NCBI GenBank assembly: GCA_902598305.1 | Contig: CACKBL010000003.1 | Location: 62,001 to 126,000 of the forward strand | Direction: 5' to 3' | Origin: an uncultured Bacteroidota bacterium | Lineage (GTDB): Bacteria; Bacteroidota; Bacteroidia; Flavobacteriales; Flavobacteriaceae | Length of the DNA: 64,000 nucleotides | Shown: positions 1-6,407 of the stretch, one piece after another | How positions within the stretch are numbered: position 1 is the first letter of the stretch | Layout: each line of letters opens with the position of its first letter | Made by a program: the position numbers and the translations under genes | The notes under the pieces: generated by a model | Seen by the model: only the letters and a program-made list of their open reading frames with translations | The model's database searches: none | Told to the model about the DNA's origin: nothing

Positions 1-1042
1 TATTATTAGCTAAATCAGAAACTAGATTTTTTGTAATATCAGACTGATCATTTGAAATAGTTATATTTATTGAGGATGGGAATTCATCCTTTTTCACTTT
101 TTCGACTAGTTCTCTTATTTTTTCTACGCTTTTGATCAAATTTTTTCCAGATCTTTTCTTTACATCCAAAACGATTGAATTTTTACCGTTTGATCTAGCG
201 TAGGAATTAATCTCCTTTTCTTTAAAAGTTATCTTAGATATATCCCCAAGAAAAACCGTCCCGTCTTGATTTTTAACCACAAAGTTTTCTAAATCTTCAG
301 GATTTTTAATTTCACCTATTACTCTGATATTTCTTCTAAGACCGTTACCTTCAATATTACCTGCTGAAATAGTATTATTTCCTCTTTGTATACAATTTAT
401 AACATCATCGAAAGAAACGGTTGCCGCAACCATTTTGATTAAATCTAATGATACTTCTACTTCAAAATCTTGAACACCCCGTAAGGAAACTTCCTTAATT
501 TCGGCCATTTGCTCAATTTTGTCCTTTAAAATCTCTCCATAAATTTTCATTTCTTTTCGAGGAATATTCCCACTTAATCCGATATTTAGAATAGGAACTT
601 CTTCGGAAATACTATACTCAAACACAGCAGGTTCTATTTTTGCCCCATTAAAAATTGGCCAATCAGCTTGAGCAGTTACTGCATCAACTTTGTCTTGGAC
701 ATCAATTTTTGCTTTCTCTTTTAAAATATTTTCATCAAACTCTATGGTTATTAAAGAAATATTCTCTTGAGATGTTGATTTAATTCCAACCAAATTTGAA
801 ACACCCTTCAGTTCTTCCTCTAAAGGGTCAGTGATTAATCTTTCAACGTCCTCAGCAGTATTCCCGGGATAAACTGAACTTACGAAAATAACATTGCTAT
901 TTATTTCTGGGAAGTTCTCTCTTGGTAAGCTTATATATGATGAAAATCCGAGTATAAAAAAAATGGAAATTAAAACATAAACTACAGTACTATGGTCAAT
1001 AGCCCATGAGGAGGGTAAAAATTCTTTAAAGCCTTTGTTCAT
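1..1042 (-). CDS. RND family efflux pump inner-membrane protein, partial (N-terminal ~347 residues)
   Basis: The reading frame stays open from an ATG at 1042 to the left edge, so only the N-terminal third of a pump of roughly 1000 residues is present. A short cytoplasmic N-terminus is followed by one hydrophobic segment (about residues 18-37). Next comes a porter domain with typical RND features, such as the stretch around residues 58-80 containing YPGNTAEDVE and DPLEEELKGV. It should be the proton-driven inner-membrane part of a tripartite exporter. It starts 7 bases after the stop of the adaptor gene and is last in the operon tetR, outer-membrane factor, adaptor, pump. Substrate cannot be read from the sequence; drug or organic-compound (HAE1-like) export is more likely than metal export, but this is inference. 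Confidence 0.9.
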   Translation of the reverse strand, partial: MNKGFKEFLPSSWAIDHSTVVYVLISIFFILGFSSYISLPRENFPEINSNVIFVSSVYPGNTAEDVERLITDPLEEELKGVSNLVGIKSTSQENISLITIEFDENILKEKAKIDVQDKVDAVTAQADWPIFNGAKIEPAVFEYSISEEVPILNIGLSGNIPRKEMKIYGEILKDKIEQMAEIKEVSLRGVQDFEVEVSLDLIKMVAATVSFDDVINCIQRGNNTISAGNIEGNGLRRNIRVIGEIKNPEDLENFVVKNQDGTVFLGDISKITFKEKEINSYARSNGKNSIVLDVKKRSGKNLIKSVEKIRELVEKVKKDEFPSSINITISNDQSDITKNLVSDLANN

Positions 1043-1049
1043 AATAAAC

Positions 1050-2225
1050 TTAAATTTTGGTAGAAATTACCTTTACAATTTGCCCATCTTCAACTTGCCT
1101 AAGACCATCATTAATGATTAAATCATTTTCTTTCAAACCAGAATTAATTTCAGTCATATTATTGTATGACTTTCCTTTTTGAATCATCACTTTGTTTGAT
1201 TTATAATTTTCATTGCTGTCAATAACCAATTTATATACGTAAAAATTTCCTTCTTCATCTTCTAGTATATCTTTAGATGGAATTAGGATGGCACTCTTAT
1301 TTTCATAATCATTGATTTCTAAACTAACCGTCATATTTGGTTTTAATTCATTTGACTTGTTCAATAATTTAATTTCAATACTAAAAGACCTATTATTAGG
1401 ATTTATGAAATTACCAACAGATGAAATTTTGCCTAAAATTTGTTTATCCAATATTGGGACATAAATTTTAACATTTTTATTCTGTTTAATGTAAGGGATG
1501 TGTATTTCAGGTATCTCTGCACTAACTTTCATTTGCTCAATATTAATTATTCTCAAAATTGGGGTTAAGCCTGGTGCCAAGTTACTTCCAATATCAGCAA
1601 TAACGTCGTCTATAGTTCCGTCAAATGGAGCTAAAATTCTTGTTTTGCCTTCTTGATCTCTCATTTGAGAAATTTTTTTCTCCAAACCTTTAAAATTTGT
1701 TTCTGCTTGTAAATATTGTATTTCGGAACCAATTTTTTGATCCCATAATTTTTTTTGTCGTTCAAAGGTTGTTTTAGCCAGATTTCTTTGAAGTTTTAAC
1801 TGTTCTAATTGATCAGTTAAGCCATTATCTGAAATTTTAGCGATTATTTGCCCTTTCTTTACTTTGTCTCCTTGTTTAACGTAAATATTTTTTAAAAGAC
1901 CAGGCAATTCAGGATAAATAACCACATTTTGATCTGTATCTAATGAACCTTGAAAATTTAAATAGTGGCTAAAGTTTTTGTGTTTCAATTTAATTGCAGA
2001 AACTAAAAATAAGTTTTTATCGGTATCAATTTTTTCAAGCACATTATCCAACCTGTTTAGTTCAAATTTTAAATCATTTATTTGGGTTTTAATTTCCCCC
2101 TTTCTTTTTTGAATTAAAGTATAATCATTAGTTGCTAAAATTTCTTCCGTTGATTTAGAATTTTTTGGTCCGCAACTAATAACTAATATTATACTAAGAC
2201 TTAAAATAAAATTTTTCATATACAT
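1050..2225 (-). CDS. HlyD/AcrA-family periplasmic adaptor lipoprotein of the RND pump
   Basis: A 391-residue membrane-fusion protein. Its N-terminus is a lipoprotein signal with Cys18 in the lipobox (VISCGPK), so it should be anchored by lipid in the inner membrane. The first half of a lipoyl-like domain lies near residues 101-131 (PELPGLLKNIYVKQGDKVKK). A coiled-coil hairpin covers about 132-195, and the second lipoyl half begins at about 197 (ILAPFDGTIDDV). A beta-barrel and membrane-proximal domain follow. It joins the RND pump to the TolC-like channel. It lies 1 base after the channel gene and 7 bases before the pump gene, so the three are surely one transcript. A start at the second ATG (residue 3) is equally possible. 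Confidence 0.93.
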   Translation of the reverse strand: MYMKNFILSLSIILVISCGPKNSKSTEEILATNDYTLIQKRKGEIKTQINDLKFELNRLDNVLEKIDTDKNLFLVSAIKLKHKNFSHYLNFQGSLDTDQNVVIYPELPGLLKNIYVKQGDKVKKGQIIAKISDNGLTDQLEQLKLQRNLAKTTFERQKKLWDQKIGSEIQYLQAETNFKGLEKKISQMRDQEGKTRILAPFDGTIDDVIADIGSNLAPGLTPILRIINIEQMKVSAEIPEIHIPYIKQNKNVKIYVPILDKQILGKISSVGNFINPNNRSFSIEIKLLNKSNELKPNMTVSLEINDYENKSAILIPSKDILEDEEGNFYVYKLVIDSNENYKSNKVMIQKGKSYNNMTEINSGLKENDLIINDGLRQVEDGQIVKVISTKI

Positions 2226-2226
2226 T

Positions 2227-3561
2227 TTAATTTTTGTTATTTAAGATATTTTCAAGATTTGTTTTCTCAATTATCACAGCACGCATACTTTGAATTTTAC
2301 TTTGCTGAGCCTGGTAAAGCTGTTGTTGGGCTTGTGTCAATTGAAAGCTTCCACTAACTCCTTCAAAAAACTTTATTATATTCTTTTTTTCAATTCTTTC
2401 AGCTAGCTTTAGATTATCAATAGCAGTTAAATAATTTTCTTTAGCTAGATTAAAATTGTTTTGAGCCTTTCTCATTTCGACATAAACTTTGGATTTAACC
2501 TCAGTTAAATTCTTTTCAGCTTGTTGCAAGCTAAGCTTGGCTTTTTGTGACTTCGCGTGTCTACCAAATGAACTAAAAATGGGAACTTCTAATCGTAATC
2601 CAAATGCCGAAGAACCAAACCATTTTTGTTCTTTATCAGTGAATGTAAATTCATTACTATTTCCCACATAACTTCCATTTAGAAAGGCGCTCAATGAAGG
2701 TAAGCCTTTTGCCTTTTCCAATCGAAATAAAAACTTCTCTTCTATGACTTTATTTTCTGCTAGTCGAATGTCTATGTTGTTTGAATAGTTACTGTCAATC
2801 GATTCATAATTCAAGTTTTTCATAGTCAAATACTCTAAAGAGTCTGAGAGGTTTACTTTATGGTCAAGTTCAACGCCTAATAAAAGTTTTAAAATATCAA
2901 AAGATAGTTTGTAAGATTCTTTTGCATATTTAAATTGGGTTCTAAGCTTAGAAATAGTTAGTTTAATTTGTTCTACGTCTTCCTCTTCACTAAATCCATT
3001 TTTGTAAACTGCAGTTATCTCTTTTAAATTTTTATTTAATGCTGATAAATTCTTCTCAATAACTGAAATATTTTCTTCAGCTACTAGTGTGTTTACGTAA
3101 GCAATAATTATCGATTTTTTAATTTCTATTTGTGATTTTTCTAATACATTTTTTGCTGTATCTATATAATGTTTTAATCCTTGCACACCAATTATATATG
3201 TACCATCAAATAGTAATTGATTTATTTCAGCAAATCCTATGGCTGTTTGCTCAGTTCCAAAAACCACCTCAGCATAATCACCTTTAGTACCTCCAAAAAA
3301 TTCAGCTGGTATAAGTGAAACAGGTTGTTCTAAAAAGTTTTGATAGCTTAAATTGGCTCTAATTTGAGGTAAGCCTATAGAAATGGTTTTCCATTTTTCC
3401 TTGTATGCTTTTTGCAATTCCAAATTGGATTTTTGAATGGTTTTATTATAATCCATGCCCCATTCGATAGCCGAACTAAGAGTAAAAGAATTGGGTATAT
3501 CTTGACATGATAAATAAAAATGTATCAGCACAAGAAAAACAGATATCGGTGTTTTTATCAT
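2227..3561 (-). CDS. TolC-family outer-membrane efflux channel
   Basis: About 444 residues with an N-terminal signal peptide and the long amphipathic helices of the outer-membrane factor family. The C-terminal half carries the family pattern of Ala/Gln-rich helices (for example LTQAQQQLYQAQQS near the end). It would form the outer-membrane exit of the tripartite pump with the adjacent adaptor and RND genes. Two starts are possible. An upstream ATG at 3573 would overlap tetR by 11 bases and place Cys and Glu before the signal peptide. I prefer the ATG at 3561, one base after the tetR stop, because it gives a clean Met-Ile-Lys signal peptide. Confidence 0.92.
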   Translation of the reverse strand: MIKTPISVFLVLIHFYLSCQDIPNSFTLSSAIEWGMDYNKTIQKSNLELQKAYKEKWKTISIGLPQIRANLSYQNFLEQPVSLIPAEFFGGTKGDYAEVVFGTEQTAIGFAEINQLLFDGTYIIGVQGLKHYIDTAKNVLEKSQIEIKKSIIIAYVNTLVAEENISVIEKNLSALNKNLKEITAVYKNGFSEEEDVEQIKLTISKLRTQFKYAKESYKLSFDILKLLLGVELDHKVNLSDSLEYLTMKNLNYESIDSNYSNNIDIRLAENKVIEEKFLFRLEKAKGLPSLSAFLNGSYVGNSNEFTFTDKEQKWFGSSAFGLRLEVPIFSSFGRHAKSQKAKLSLQQAEKNLTEVKSKVYVEMRKAQNNFNLAKENYLTAIDNLKLAERIEKKNIIKFFEGVSGSFQLTQAQQQLYQAQQSKIQSMRAVIIEKTNLENILNNKN

Positions 3562-3562
3562 T

Positions 3563-4168
3563 TCACAAAGCATTTTTAGATATAAATTTGTTTAAAACTG
3601 AAAGACCTTTATCTGTTACAATAGCCCTTGCATGATATTCTAAATAACTCTCAATTAAAATTTTAATATCAAAGTTTTCAGGAGGGAATACATCAATATC
3701 GCGAATTCCTCTCATTCCGTTCATATACAGTCTTGAGACAAAGTCTATATCAATATTTTTTCTAAACAATCCAGTTTCAATTCCTTCTTTTAAACTGGAT
3801 TTAACTAAAAATCCAAGTCTTGTATATTCCTTATTTTTAATATCATTATAAATTTCAGGATAATATTTTTGCATTTGATAAACCGGTGAACTTTTTTCAT
3901 TTTGAAAATACTTTAGAACTTCAGATTTAACACAATATAACTCTTCAATAGGGTGCTTTGCTGATTTTTTAATTCGTTCAATATCATTACAAGCATTTTC
4001 GAAAATGAGTTGAGTACTTTCTTTAACGAGTTCATATTTATTTTTAAAGTAGGAATAAATTGTTTTTTTTGAGATACCCATTTTTTCAGCGATGTCATCC
4101 ATCGTAACGTTTTTAAATCCTATTTCTAAAAATAGCTGGCTTGAAATGTTTAGTATATTATCTTTCAT
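3563..4168 (-). CDS. TetR/AcrR-family transcriptional regulator
   Basis: A 201-residue regulator with the N-terminal helix-turn-helix of the TetR family at about residues 23-48 (DDIAEKMGISKKTIYSYF). An all-helical ligand-binding domain follows. It is first in the operon with the efflux genes, the usual arrangement for a local repressor of an RND pump. A Bacteroidota-type promoter and a 9-base inverted repeat lie directly upstream (4179-4218), so it probably represses its own transcript and the pump genes behind it. The inducer is unknown. The start at 4168 is only about 10 bases from the -7 box, so the transcript would be nearly leaderless. Confidence 0.93.
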   Translation of the reverse strand: MKDNILNISSQLFLEIGFKNVTMDDIAEKMGISKKTIYSYFKNKYELVKESTQLIFENACNDIERIKKSAKHPIEELYCVKSEVLKYFQNEKSSPVYQMQKYYPEIYNDIKNKEYTRLGFLVKSSLKEGIETGLFRKNIDIDFVSRLYMNGMRGIRDIDVFPPENFDIKILIESYLEYHARAIVTDKGLSVLNKFISKNAL

Positions 4169-4178
4169 TTTAAGGGTG

Positions 4179-4209
4179 CAAATATAAAATGGAAACTTTA
4201 AATACCAAA
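4179..4209 (-). promoter_or_regulatory. Bacteroidota-type promoter of the tetR-efflux operon
   Basis: Read on the minus strand, a TTTG box (4209-4206) is followed by 19 bases and then TATATTTG (4186-4179). This matches the known Bacteroidota sigma pattern TTTG / TAnnTTTG exactly in both boxes and in spacing. Transcription would begin a few bases from the tetR start codon at 4168. Confidence 0.75.
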
Positions 4210-4218
4210 AAAGTTTCC
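4191..4218. promoter_or_regulatory. Probable TetR operator (inverted repeat)
   Basis: Two 9-base arms, GGAAACTTT (4191-4199) and AAAGTTTCC (4210-4218), form a perfect inverted repeat around a 10-base centre. The repeat covers the spacer and the -33 box of the tetR promoter, so a dimer bound here would block polymerase. Size and symmetry fit a TetR-family operator. That this protein binds it is inference. Confidence 0.6.
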
Positions 4219-4251
4219 TTAGTTTTTTTTATTAAAAAATCTTTTTTAAAT

Positions 4252-4259
4252 TATTTTTG
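4252..4259 (+). promoter_or_regulatory. Possible -7 promoter box before the prenyl synthase gene
   Basis: TATTTTTG matches TAnnTTTG. No TTTG is seen at the expected upstream distance; the region is only T-rich. If real, the transcript would begin near 4266 and translation must start at the TTG at 4275, not at 4257. Confidence 0.35.
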
Positions 4260-5243
4260 TTTCAAAAGAAAGTTTTGTCAAGCTCAATTAAAGAAATTTT
4301 TGAAAGTTTTTTAGAAAGTGAAATTGCTGAATATTCATCCAGCAGTTTGTTTGAACCCATTATATATAGTATGCAAAATAAAGGTAAAAGAGTTAGACCT
4401 ATATTAACTCTAATGGCGGCAGACTCTCTTGCAAATAATTTTGAAAAAGCTCTACCTGCAGCTTTAGCAATAGAAATCTTTCATAATTTTTCCTTAGTTC
4501 ATGACGATATAATGGATAATGCATTGTATCGACGGGGTAGATTATCAGTTCATAAAAAATGGAATAGAAATAGTGCTATTTTGTCAGGAGATGCTATGCT
4601 GATATTATCATACAAGTCACTTGAAACTTATAAATCAGAGACTTATGTTAAAATGAATAAAGTATTAACAGATAGTGCATTGGATGTTTGCAAGGGGCAG
4701 CAAATGGATATGAATTTTACAGATAAAATTGATATTAGCGAATCGCAATACTTTGAAATGATTAAGTTAAAAACTGCTGTATTAATTGGTGCTGCACTTA
4801 AAATGGGTGTACTCGCAGTTGGTGCTGATGAAGATGTAAGCCGATCCTTCTATGAATTTGGATTGAATTTGGGAATTTTGTTCCAATTACAAGATGATTA
4901 CTTAGATGTATTTGGCGAGGAAAACATTTTTGGAAAAGTCAGTGGTGGAGACATAAAAGAAAATAAAAGAACACTCTTTTTTATTCACTCTATTGAAAAC
5001 GGATCTAAGGAAGATGTAAAGTCTCTTCTAAATTTATATAGTTCGGAATCTAAAGATTTTGAGAAAAAAAAGCGCGAAGTCGTCAACATTTTTAAAAAAA
5101 ATAAATCTGACGTTTATTTAAGAAATATTATTGAAAATTATAACCAGAAGATTTTAAATTTAATAAATAACCTTCCTATTGAAATAAAAAAGCAAAAACA
5201 ATTTTTCGATCTTTTTAAAACTATATTAAATCGAAAATTATGA
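4257..5243 (+). CDS. Polyprenyl (probably geranylgeranyl) diphosphate synthase
   Basis: A trans-prenyl transferase of about 328 residues. It shows the first Asp-rich motif DDIMD (residues 83-87), the GKRVRP substrate-binding stretch (about 43-48) and the second Asp-rich motif DDYLD (213-217). It condenses isopentenyl diphosphate with allylic diphosphates in the cytoplasm. Chain length is not certain from sequence; the convergent lycopene cyclase neighbour suggests C20 for carotenoids. The start is weak. TTG at 4257 overlaps a TAnnTTTG-like box (4252-4259), and a second in-frame TTG at 4275 gives a protein beginning near SSSIKEIF, which also fits the family. The 3' end overlaps the cyclase gene by 6 bases. 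Confidence 0.92.
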   Translation: MFQKKVLSSSIKEIFESFLESEIAEYSSSSLFEPIIYSMQNKGKRVRPILTLMAADSLANNFEKALPAALAIEIFHNFSLVHDDIMDNALYRRGRLSVHKKWNRNSAILSGDAMLILSYKSLETYKSETYVKMNKVLTDSALDVCKGQQMDMNFTDKIDISESQYFEMIKLKTAVLIGAALKMGVLAVGADEDVSRSFYEFGLNLGILFQLQDDYLDVFGEENIFGKVSGGDIKENKRTLFFIHSIENGSKEDVKSLLNLYSSESKDFEKKKREVVNIFKKNKSDVYLRNIIENYNQKILNLINNLPIEIKKQKQFFDLFKTILNRKL

Positions 5244-6407
5244 TATTGAAAAGTTTTTAACTAAGGCTTTCACAAATTTACCTATCGGAAATGATAACAT
5301 AAGAAGCACATCCTCAGCGAAACTAGATTTCTCATCTAGAAATCTAAATATTCTTTGAGGGTTATTTTTTTTGAACATCCCTGAAAAAAGCGACATTCCT
5401 TTCTCGTTGTGGTGATATAGAACATCTAAAAAAAGCAAATCATAAAAATCAAATTTTGTTTTATATTCAAACTTATCAAGAGGCTTATTACTTTTTAAAT
5501 ACAGAATCAAATGTTCAATTTTATTTATAGACTTTTTAAAAGTAAATCCGGTACTCGCTTTCGTCCATCCGCCGGATGTTCCAATATGAAGGAGAGTCGA
5601 TTTATTATGTTTTGAAAAGTTGTACCCCGTCATAGGAATCGATCCTGCTTCTTTTTCAACAATCTTAAATGCACCTGCATTTTTATCCTTTAAATATTTT
5701 TTAATATTTTCTTCATATTCTTCTTTTTCAAGTATTTTTTTAGAAAATAAAGTATATTCAACAAGTGCAAAATTTTTATCAAAAGGTAAAATATACATGA
5801 ACCTAGTGTTGCCTTTTTGGGGAACACTAAAATCCATAAAAATTAATTTATTTGGGTCAAAAATTGAATTTTCTGTTTTAACAAACCAACCAATAAAATG
5901 TTGTTGTAAAACAGGAATAGATGTTTGATTTTTGTATTCTAAGTTTGGAATACTAGAGAACACTCTGGGTGCTTTATATTCTTTATTTAATGTTTTAACA
6001 TAACTAAAGCTATTATCTGACTTAATGTTTAAAATATTATCCCTTATTATTTTTAGGTTGTTTTTATTGTTTAAACTTTTTTTGAAATGATTGTAAAAGT
6101 CTATCCCTCGAATGGTTTTATAAGTGTAAGGTCTTAGTGCAAAAGAAGATTGATATTCATCTGAAATAAAATTTGCATTTTTCCAACTACCACAAATAAT
6201 ACTATCCCATTCTCCTTTACCTTCCTCCCAAAAGCTTATAGTTCTATCGTTTTTATTTTTCTCTTCTTTTTCAATTAATGCTATTTTATGATTTTTAAAA
6301 TAGATATCATCGGTTAGTTTTTTGGCTAACAATAAACCTGTGATACCACCGCCACAAATAATTATATCATAAAAATTTTTTTCACTCATGGACTCAAAAT
6401 TAAACAT
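5238..6407 (-). CDS. crtY: Lycopene beta-cyclase
   Basis: A 389-residue flavoprotein of the CrtY/Lcy family. It has an N-terminal dinucleotide-binding motif (IIICGGGITG, about residues 15-24). The family pattern QQHFIGWFV...DPNKLIFMDF sits in the middle and TSGGWTKASTGFTF follows. It cyclises both ends of lycopene to give beta-carotene, normally at the membrane. It faces the prenyl diphosphate synthase tail to tail with a 6-base overlap, so the two carotenoid genes have separate promoters. The phytoene synthase and desaturase genes usually needed are not in this window. An alternative start at the second Met (position 6389) is possible. Confidence 0.92.
   Translation of the reverse strand: MFNFESMSEKNFYDIIICGGGITGLLLAKKLTDDIYFKNHKIALIEKEEKNKNDRTISFWEEGKGEWDSIICGSWKNANFISDEYQSSFALRPYTYKTIRGIDFYNHFKKSLNNKNNLKIIRDNILNIKSDNSFSYVKTLNKEYKAPRVFSSIPNLEYKNQTSIPVLQQHFIGWFVKTENSIFDPNKLIFMDFSVPQKGNTRFMYILPFDKNFALVEYTLFSKKILEKEEYEENIKKYLKDKNAGAFKIVEKEAGSIPMTGYNFSKHNKSTLLHIGTSGGWTKASTGFTFKKSINKIEHLILYLKSNKPLDKFEYKTKFDFYDLLFLDVLYHHNEKGMSLFSGMFKKNNPQRIFRFLDEKSSFAEDVLLMLSFPIGKFVKALVKNFSIS

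Follow-up and report, generated by a model that had tools for sequence, protein, structure and literature searches.

We identified a conserved DNA element directly upstream of a tetR gene in the 64,000-nucleotide stretch of Flavobacteriaceae DNA analysed here (hereafter the window). Taken as a whole, it is best explained as the operator through which the adjacent TetR protein would repress its own transcription, overlapping the promoter of an efflux operon, and we put the probability of this reading at roughly 87%. By sequence it comprises a series of putative AAAC/GTTT half-sites, an array whose accessory positions differ between families.

The element contains a perfect inverted repeat of two 9-base arms around a 10-base centre, and on the minus strand it overlaps an exact TTTG-N19-TATATTTG promoter that ends 10 bases 5' of the tetR start at 4168. 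Both had been claimed in the preliminary description, together with the position in front of tetR and the RND genes, and both are confirmed by the coordinates and the gene order:

1-1042, minus strand: N-terminal portion of an RND permease of 1147 amino acids, the remainder of which lies before the window
1050-2225, minus strand: RND periplasmic adaptor (HlyD/RND_mfp; NCBIfam TIGR01730 above cut-off)
2227-3573, minus strand: tolC, outer-membrane efflux channel (Pfam OEP), overlapping the end of tetR
3563-4168, minus strand: tetR, TetR/AcrR-family regulator of 201 amino acids (Pfam TetR_N, E 1e-13)
4179-4186, minus strand: -7 box TATATTTG of the tetR promoter, assigned by sequence; the box is kept across Flavobacteriaceae loci
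4191-4199, minus strand: half-site d, the palindrome arm proximal to tetR (GTTTCC at 4191-4196 on the minus strand)
4202-4205, minus strand: half-site c, the inner one, which reads GTAT in the window and GTnT in relatives; its centre is 11 bases from that of b
4206-4209, minus strand: TTTG at -33, inside the palindrome centre and outside both arms
4210-4218, minus strand: half-site b, the palindrome arm distal to tetR (GGAAAC at 4213-4218)
4222-4225, minus strand: half-site a, the outer AAAC, lying 9 bases past b and outside the coordinates of the preliminary description
4252-4259, plus strand: TATTTTTG, probable -7 box for the divergent synthase gene, present in 6/6 genus sequences
4275-5243, plus strand: divergent polyprenyl diphosphate synthase gene (Pfam PF00348)

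The two boxes of the tetR promoter fit the Bacteroidetes -33/-7 consensus TTTG/TANNTTTG, as given in PMC6847099. With the -7 box placed at -12 to -5, the position reported for F. psychrophilum in PMC9723704, transcription would start about 6 bases before the tetR ATG and the array would cover about -17 to -51 of the tetR promoter.

The repeat by itself is only mildly unusual and proves little. The GC content of the window is 30% and perfect 9-base inverted repeats are not rare there: with gaps of 3-20 we counted 25 distinct centres, compared to 12-22 in eight dinucleotide shuffles, and 8 matches with at least three G/C per arm (nested counts of one repeat included), compared to 1-6. Such numbers would suit a chance product of AT-rich DNA, or the stem of a transcription terminator, but the bases of the site, their spacing and their placement with respect to the -7 box are kept across families, and this conservation at orthologue loci rules out either origin for practical purposes, leaving it a negligible probability. 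The significance of the repeat therefore lies in its conservation across loci and not in the palindrome itself.

Conservation was assessed at 86 tetR orthologue loci, consisting of 70 best-per-genome loci and 16 named contigs, by searching the 260 bases upstream of each gene for the best match to GGAAAC-gap-GTTTCC with gaps of 10-21 allowed. Altogether 99 genomes were examined and 81 of them had a TetR match; of the 11 matched genomes outside the 70, two were inspected as L100 and L101 and nine were not fetched (G028, G067, G069, G079, G080, G087, G089, G091 and G092). Before counting, L001 was dropped because it repeats the site of L002, L032-L036 because they duplicate L003-L007, and L053 because only its helix-turn-helix matched. 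L047 and L048 are identical around the site. The core GGAAAC-N16/17-GTTTCC was found with at most one mismatch in 82 of the 86 loci. Mismatches numbered 0 in 70 loci, 1 in 12 and 2 in three (L045, L074 and L079, with the site 174 nt upstream in one of them), always with a gap of 16 or 17, and at L073 no site was found in the 260 bases searched. Within the genus of the window all 28 bases are identical in 6/6 sequences (the window and five relatives) and the flanking bases vary; a sixth relative, G004 (67% complete), had no tetR match. The arms are thus kept in close relatives that retain the operon, which the preliminary description had named as a check of its proposal. Even in Chitinophaga the exact 18 arm bases are present, although the TetR proteins are only 26-31% identical to that of the window. 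As a control we inspected 20 more distant TetR genes, 19 of which lacked the site (at least two mismatches). At the remaining gene, L100, which is the sole TetR match of its genome, the site is present with a 15-base gap; at L101, also the sole TetR match of its genome and 25% identical, the site is absent.

The position of the site relative to the promoter is conserved as well. In all 56 Flavobacteriaceae loci (47 genomes of distinct genera and nine named contigs whose genus, and for two also the family, is unchecked) the -7 box starts 4-7 bases past the palindrome, reading TAnnTTTG in 53 and TAnnTTTA in three. At ten loci from other families of the order (L080, L084-L087 and L089-L093) it lies 14-16 bases past the palindrome, about one helical turn further. 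Both spacings would put a bound repressor on or against the promoter.

Searches by pattern, independent of the TetR search, led mostly to TetR genes. Of 395 genomes sampled across the phylum, 29 contained the exact 18-base pattern and none the reversed one. Among 27 newly fetched sites, 24 had a TetR start less than 70 nt downstream and the remaining three had a YceI gene between operator and TetR. In 149 family genomes we found 166 core sites, distributed over 125 genomes, compared to 73 sites for the reversed pattern; the other 24 genomes had no exact core. Of 141 fetched core sites 115 lay less than 130 nt before a TetR gene (family f1 36/42, f18 29/34, f22 24/35, f23 26/30). An accessory half-site was present at 101 of these 115 sites, compared to 2 of the 26 away from TetR, both of the YceI type, and the sites away from TetR mostly look like chance, with the exception of three YceI loci. 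The genome of the window itself (an assembly of 1.8 Mb, 88% complete) contains the 18 arm bases, with gaps of 8-12 allowed, only once, and with up to three mismatches 5 places were found compared to 4 for a reversed control. A genome-wide regulon is not supported by this single exact site and the lack of a clear excess at three mismatches.

The regulator itself is a well recognisable member of its family. Its TetR_N helix-turn-helix scored 51.1 bits against a Pfam cut-off of 24, and the predicted structure (pLDDT 87.1) shows a TetR fold with a C-terminal helical domain. The best match of this predicted model among solved TetR-family proteins had a Z score of 17.8 (rmsd 2.7 over 180 residues), and the QacR-DNA complex 1jt0 matched it with a Z score of 16.0 (rmsd 3.6 over 178 residues). 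The AcrR equivalog model NF007949 scored 37.2 bits, below its curated cut-off of 271. In the window the tetR, tolC, adaptor and RND genes overlap or are separated by gaps of a few bases, and this order is widely kept, with tolC downstream of tetR in 85 of 86 loci and the adaptor in 52 of the 54 loci that were long enough. The first 50 TetR residues, which comprise the helix-turn-helix, were compared with those of the window in 140 relatives; averaged within each of five groups they are 46-60% identical, compared to 20-42% for the rest of the protein. Residues S33, K34, K35, T36 and Y38 are invariant in 141/141 TetR proteins. SKKT is present also in TetR proteins without the site; the helix alone can therefore not explain the specificity, and other residues must contribute.

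That a DNA-binding protein other than the adjacent TetR reads the site is very unlikely. One locus would agree with it, an exact 18-base site (L174:2533-2560) from outside the 141 core sites, around which the fetched 5.5 kb showed no TetR gene. On the other hand, the site goes with the orthologous TetR rather than with distant TetRs or with other genes, and the best conserved part of TetR is its DNA-binding domain. The site at L174 overlaps the end of a uvrC-like ORF and precedes a patatin-like ORF (both identified by eye), and it is possible that it is a distant member of a regulon.

When 54 Flavobacteriaceae loci were aligned on the core, further bases proved to be fully or nearly fully conserved. 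Offsets are given in tetR orientation, relative to the initial G of GGAAAC. The outer half-site a, AAAC at -7, is present in 53 of the 56 Flavobacteriaceae loci, and the inner half-site c, GTnT at 13, in all 56. A scan of 100 offsets in five groups showed that, beyond the core arms, frequencies of at least 20% are reached only by AAAC at -7 and 11 and by GTTT at 13 and 31, which gives the following layouts:

Family f1: AAAC at -7 (78/82 sites) and 2; GTTT at 13 (63/82 sites, the sole GTTT peak outside the arms) and 22
Chitinophaga: AAAC at 2; GTTT at 13 (4/5), 22 and 31 (5/5)
Family f18: AAAC at 2; GTTT at 22 and 31 (29/29); AC at 13 (21/29)
Family f22: AAAC at -7 (19/24) and 2; GTTT at 22 and 31 (16/24); inner half-sites absent
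Family f23: AAAC at 2 and 11 (9/26); GTTT at 22

The loci of f18, f22 and f23 and 26 of the 82 f1 sites were found via the core pattern, so that conservation of the core (offsets 2 and 22) is there by construction, whereas that of the accessory half-sites is not. Each accessory half-site is a direct repeat of an arm, displaced by 9 bases inward or outward. The f18 layout is approximately the mirror image of that of f1, with the outer half-site located within the -7 box (TAGTTT in 29/29) and just the AC of the inner AAAC retained. The accessory half-sites follow a less regular pattern in f22 and f23. The preliminary description had proposed that the palindrome is the operator; an operator-like site is indeed kept beside tetR, but its extent has to be revised, as the array (4191-4225 in the window) exceeds the palindrome with extra half-sites.

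The palindrome could also be a simple site for one dimer, with the other conserved bases being part of the promoter (its -33 box and an A-tract upstream) instead of the repressor site. The exact TTTG-N19-TATATTTG of the window would fit this, as would the outer AAAC, which is placed where an upstream promoter element could be. However, TTTG with a spacer of 18-20 bases occurs in only 26 of the 56 Flavobacteriaceae loci (TTG in 35), while GTnT occurs in every one of them. A -33 box can therefore not be the sole reason why the centre is conserved, and the covered -33 box of the preliminary description, exact as it is in the window, corresponds across the family chiefly to an inner half-site. In addition, none of 12 further TTTG/TAnnTTTG promoters of the same loci (a small sample) had AAAC at the respective offset, and in f18 the centre carries AC, of the opposite strand, and the -7 box includes a GTTT half-site. 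Taken together, these observations make a one-dimer site unlikely and favour an array of repressor half-sites.

The spacing of the half-sites gives an indication of how such an array might be occupied. The DNA-reading helices of a TetR dimer are 34-48 angstrom apart according to PMC6018408. The arms of the palindrome, 20 bases or about 68 angstrom apart, exceed that range, while half-sites b and c, 11 bases apart, have the span expected for one dimer (37 angstrom). By these distances more than one TetR dimer is favoured, as in QacR, and the operator is probably occupied in this way. The 9-base offset, however, predicts a rotation of about 51 degrees between dimers, unlike the 130-145 degrees quoted for QacR-type pairs in PMC6018408. 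In f1, the family of the window, the half-sites form two overlapping palindromes as on QacR-type operators (-7/13 and 2/22), each pair being N16-spaced. Elsewhere, f18 has 2/22 and 31 with just the AC of the half-site at 11, and f22 has no inner half-sites.

From these features a model of repression can be proposed. TetR, probably with two or more dimers, would bind the array over about -17 to -51 of the promoter of the tetR-tolC-adaptor-RND operon, and would thereby block RNA polymerase and repress its own operon. Release of TetR by a ligand that the pump exports would then make the induction self-limiting. The "simple autorepression of a drug-efflux operon" of the preliminary description is likewise what we infer from anatomy, conservation and known TetR repressors.

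In the genus of the window the array ends beside the promoter of the divergent polyprenyl synthase gene, and this gene may, with less certainty, be co-repressed. Its probable start is a TTG at 4275, with no ATG near the expected start (by eye), and 39-40 bases separate its probable -7 box from the start of half-site b in 6/6 genus sequences. In 25 of 55 other loci TAnnTTTG was found within 200 bases, in 16 of them at 63-70. Given this difference in distance, co-repression of the synthase is plausible here but not in general. That the synthase is directly repressed throughout the family is not supported, the distance of the box being variable among loci. The gene itself is divergent and less than 350 nt from tetR in 48 of the 56 Flavobacteriaceae loci, and in the window it is followed by a lycopene cyclase gene (5238-6407, minus strand), so that isoprenoid/carotenoid genes neighbour the efflux operon. 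A further motif, TTAACAT, occurs in many Flavobacteriaceae loci but not in the genus of the window, at a near-fixed distance of about 24 bases from half-site b in the direction of the synthase; it is present also where the synthase is not adjacent.

YceI proteins are isoprenoid-binding. In one genus, g151 (L175-L178), a YceI-family gene is inserted between operator and tetR, as identified by Pfam for three loci and by similarity for L176. The operator copies of this genus precede the YceI gene, and in L177 and L178 they also precede tetR. The YceI-TetR module was also found before TolC and adaptor proteins that are just 21-24% identical to those of the window, and one genome of the genus contains two YceI modules about 9 kb apart with different TolC/adaptor types.

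To our knowledge, few repressor sites have been mapped in Bacteroidota. The array might represent an ancient modular code of the Bacteroidota, made up of the core and of half-sites added in 9-base steps and switched between families among inner-left, inner-right and outer positions, which would be read by a TetR assembly that senses isoprenoids or similar lipids and whose geometry would match no TetR-DNA complex known to us. We consider this broader proposal tentative and rather doubtful. Its lipid-sensing part is based on the polyprenyl synthase gene adjoining the site in Flavobacteriaceae and on YceI being inserted behind its own operator copy in one genus; both links suggest a lipid-related role of the pump beyond drugs. 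The array offers a specific and searchable operator code for a widespread efflux regulator of Bacteroidota, and lineages with the same core and different accessory half-sites are natural variants from which the number of TetR dimers could be worked out.

AcrR, TtgR and SmeT are local TetR-family repressors of RND pumps. The TetR protein of the window resembles TtgR by sequence, SmeT by fold and AcrR weakly by model, with a score far below the curated AcrR cut-off. We found no description of the operator in the open-licence literature, where 566 papers contain one of the two 9-mers and 30 of these were covered; this does not prove that there is none. Within the Bacteroidota, BmeR5 of Bacteroides fragilis, also of the TetR family, is reported in PMC4790292 to bind the intergenic region before the RND operon bmeABC5, which likewise places a TetR repressor before an RND operon. 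The genes FJOH_RS06575-06590 of Flavobacterium johnsoniae show the TetR-TolC-adaptor-permease order of the window and are likened to it by gene order alone; TolC was mutated in four of five lines coevolved with an antibiotic producer, as reported in PMC10197871. On QacR-type operators dimer pairs occupy overlapping palindromes of about 28 bp, as described in PMC6018408. The site studied here shares with them a 28-base palindrome over an efflux promoter, the one-dimer span between half-sites and a similar fold of the regulator, and differs in its accessory half-sites, which lie on a 9-base lattice at family-specific places, and in the implied offset between dimers. The class of mechanism is ordinary; the comparison adds the depth of conservation and the 9-base lattice of half-sites.
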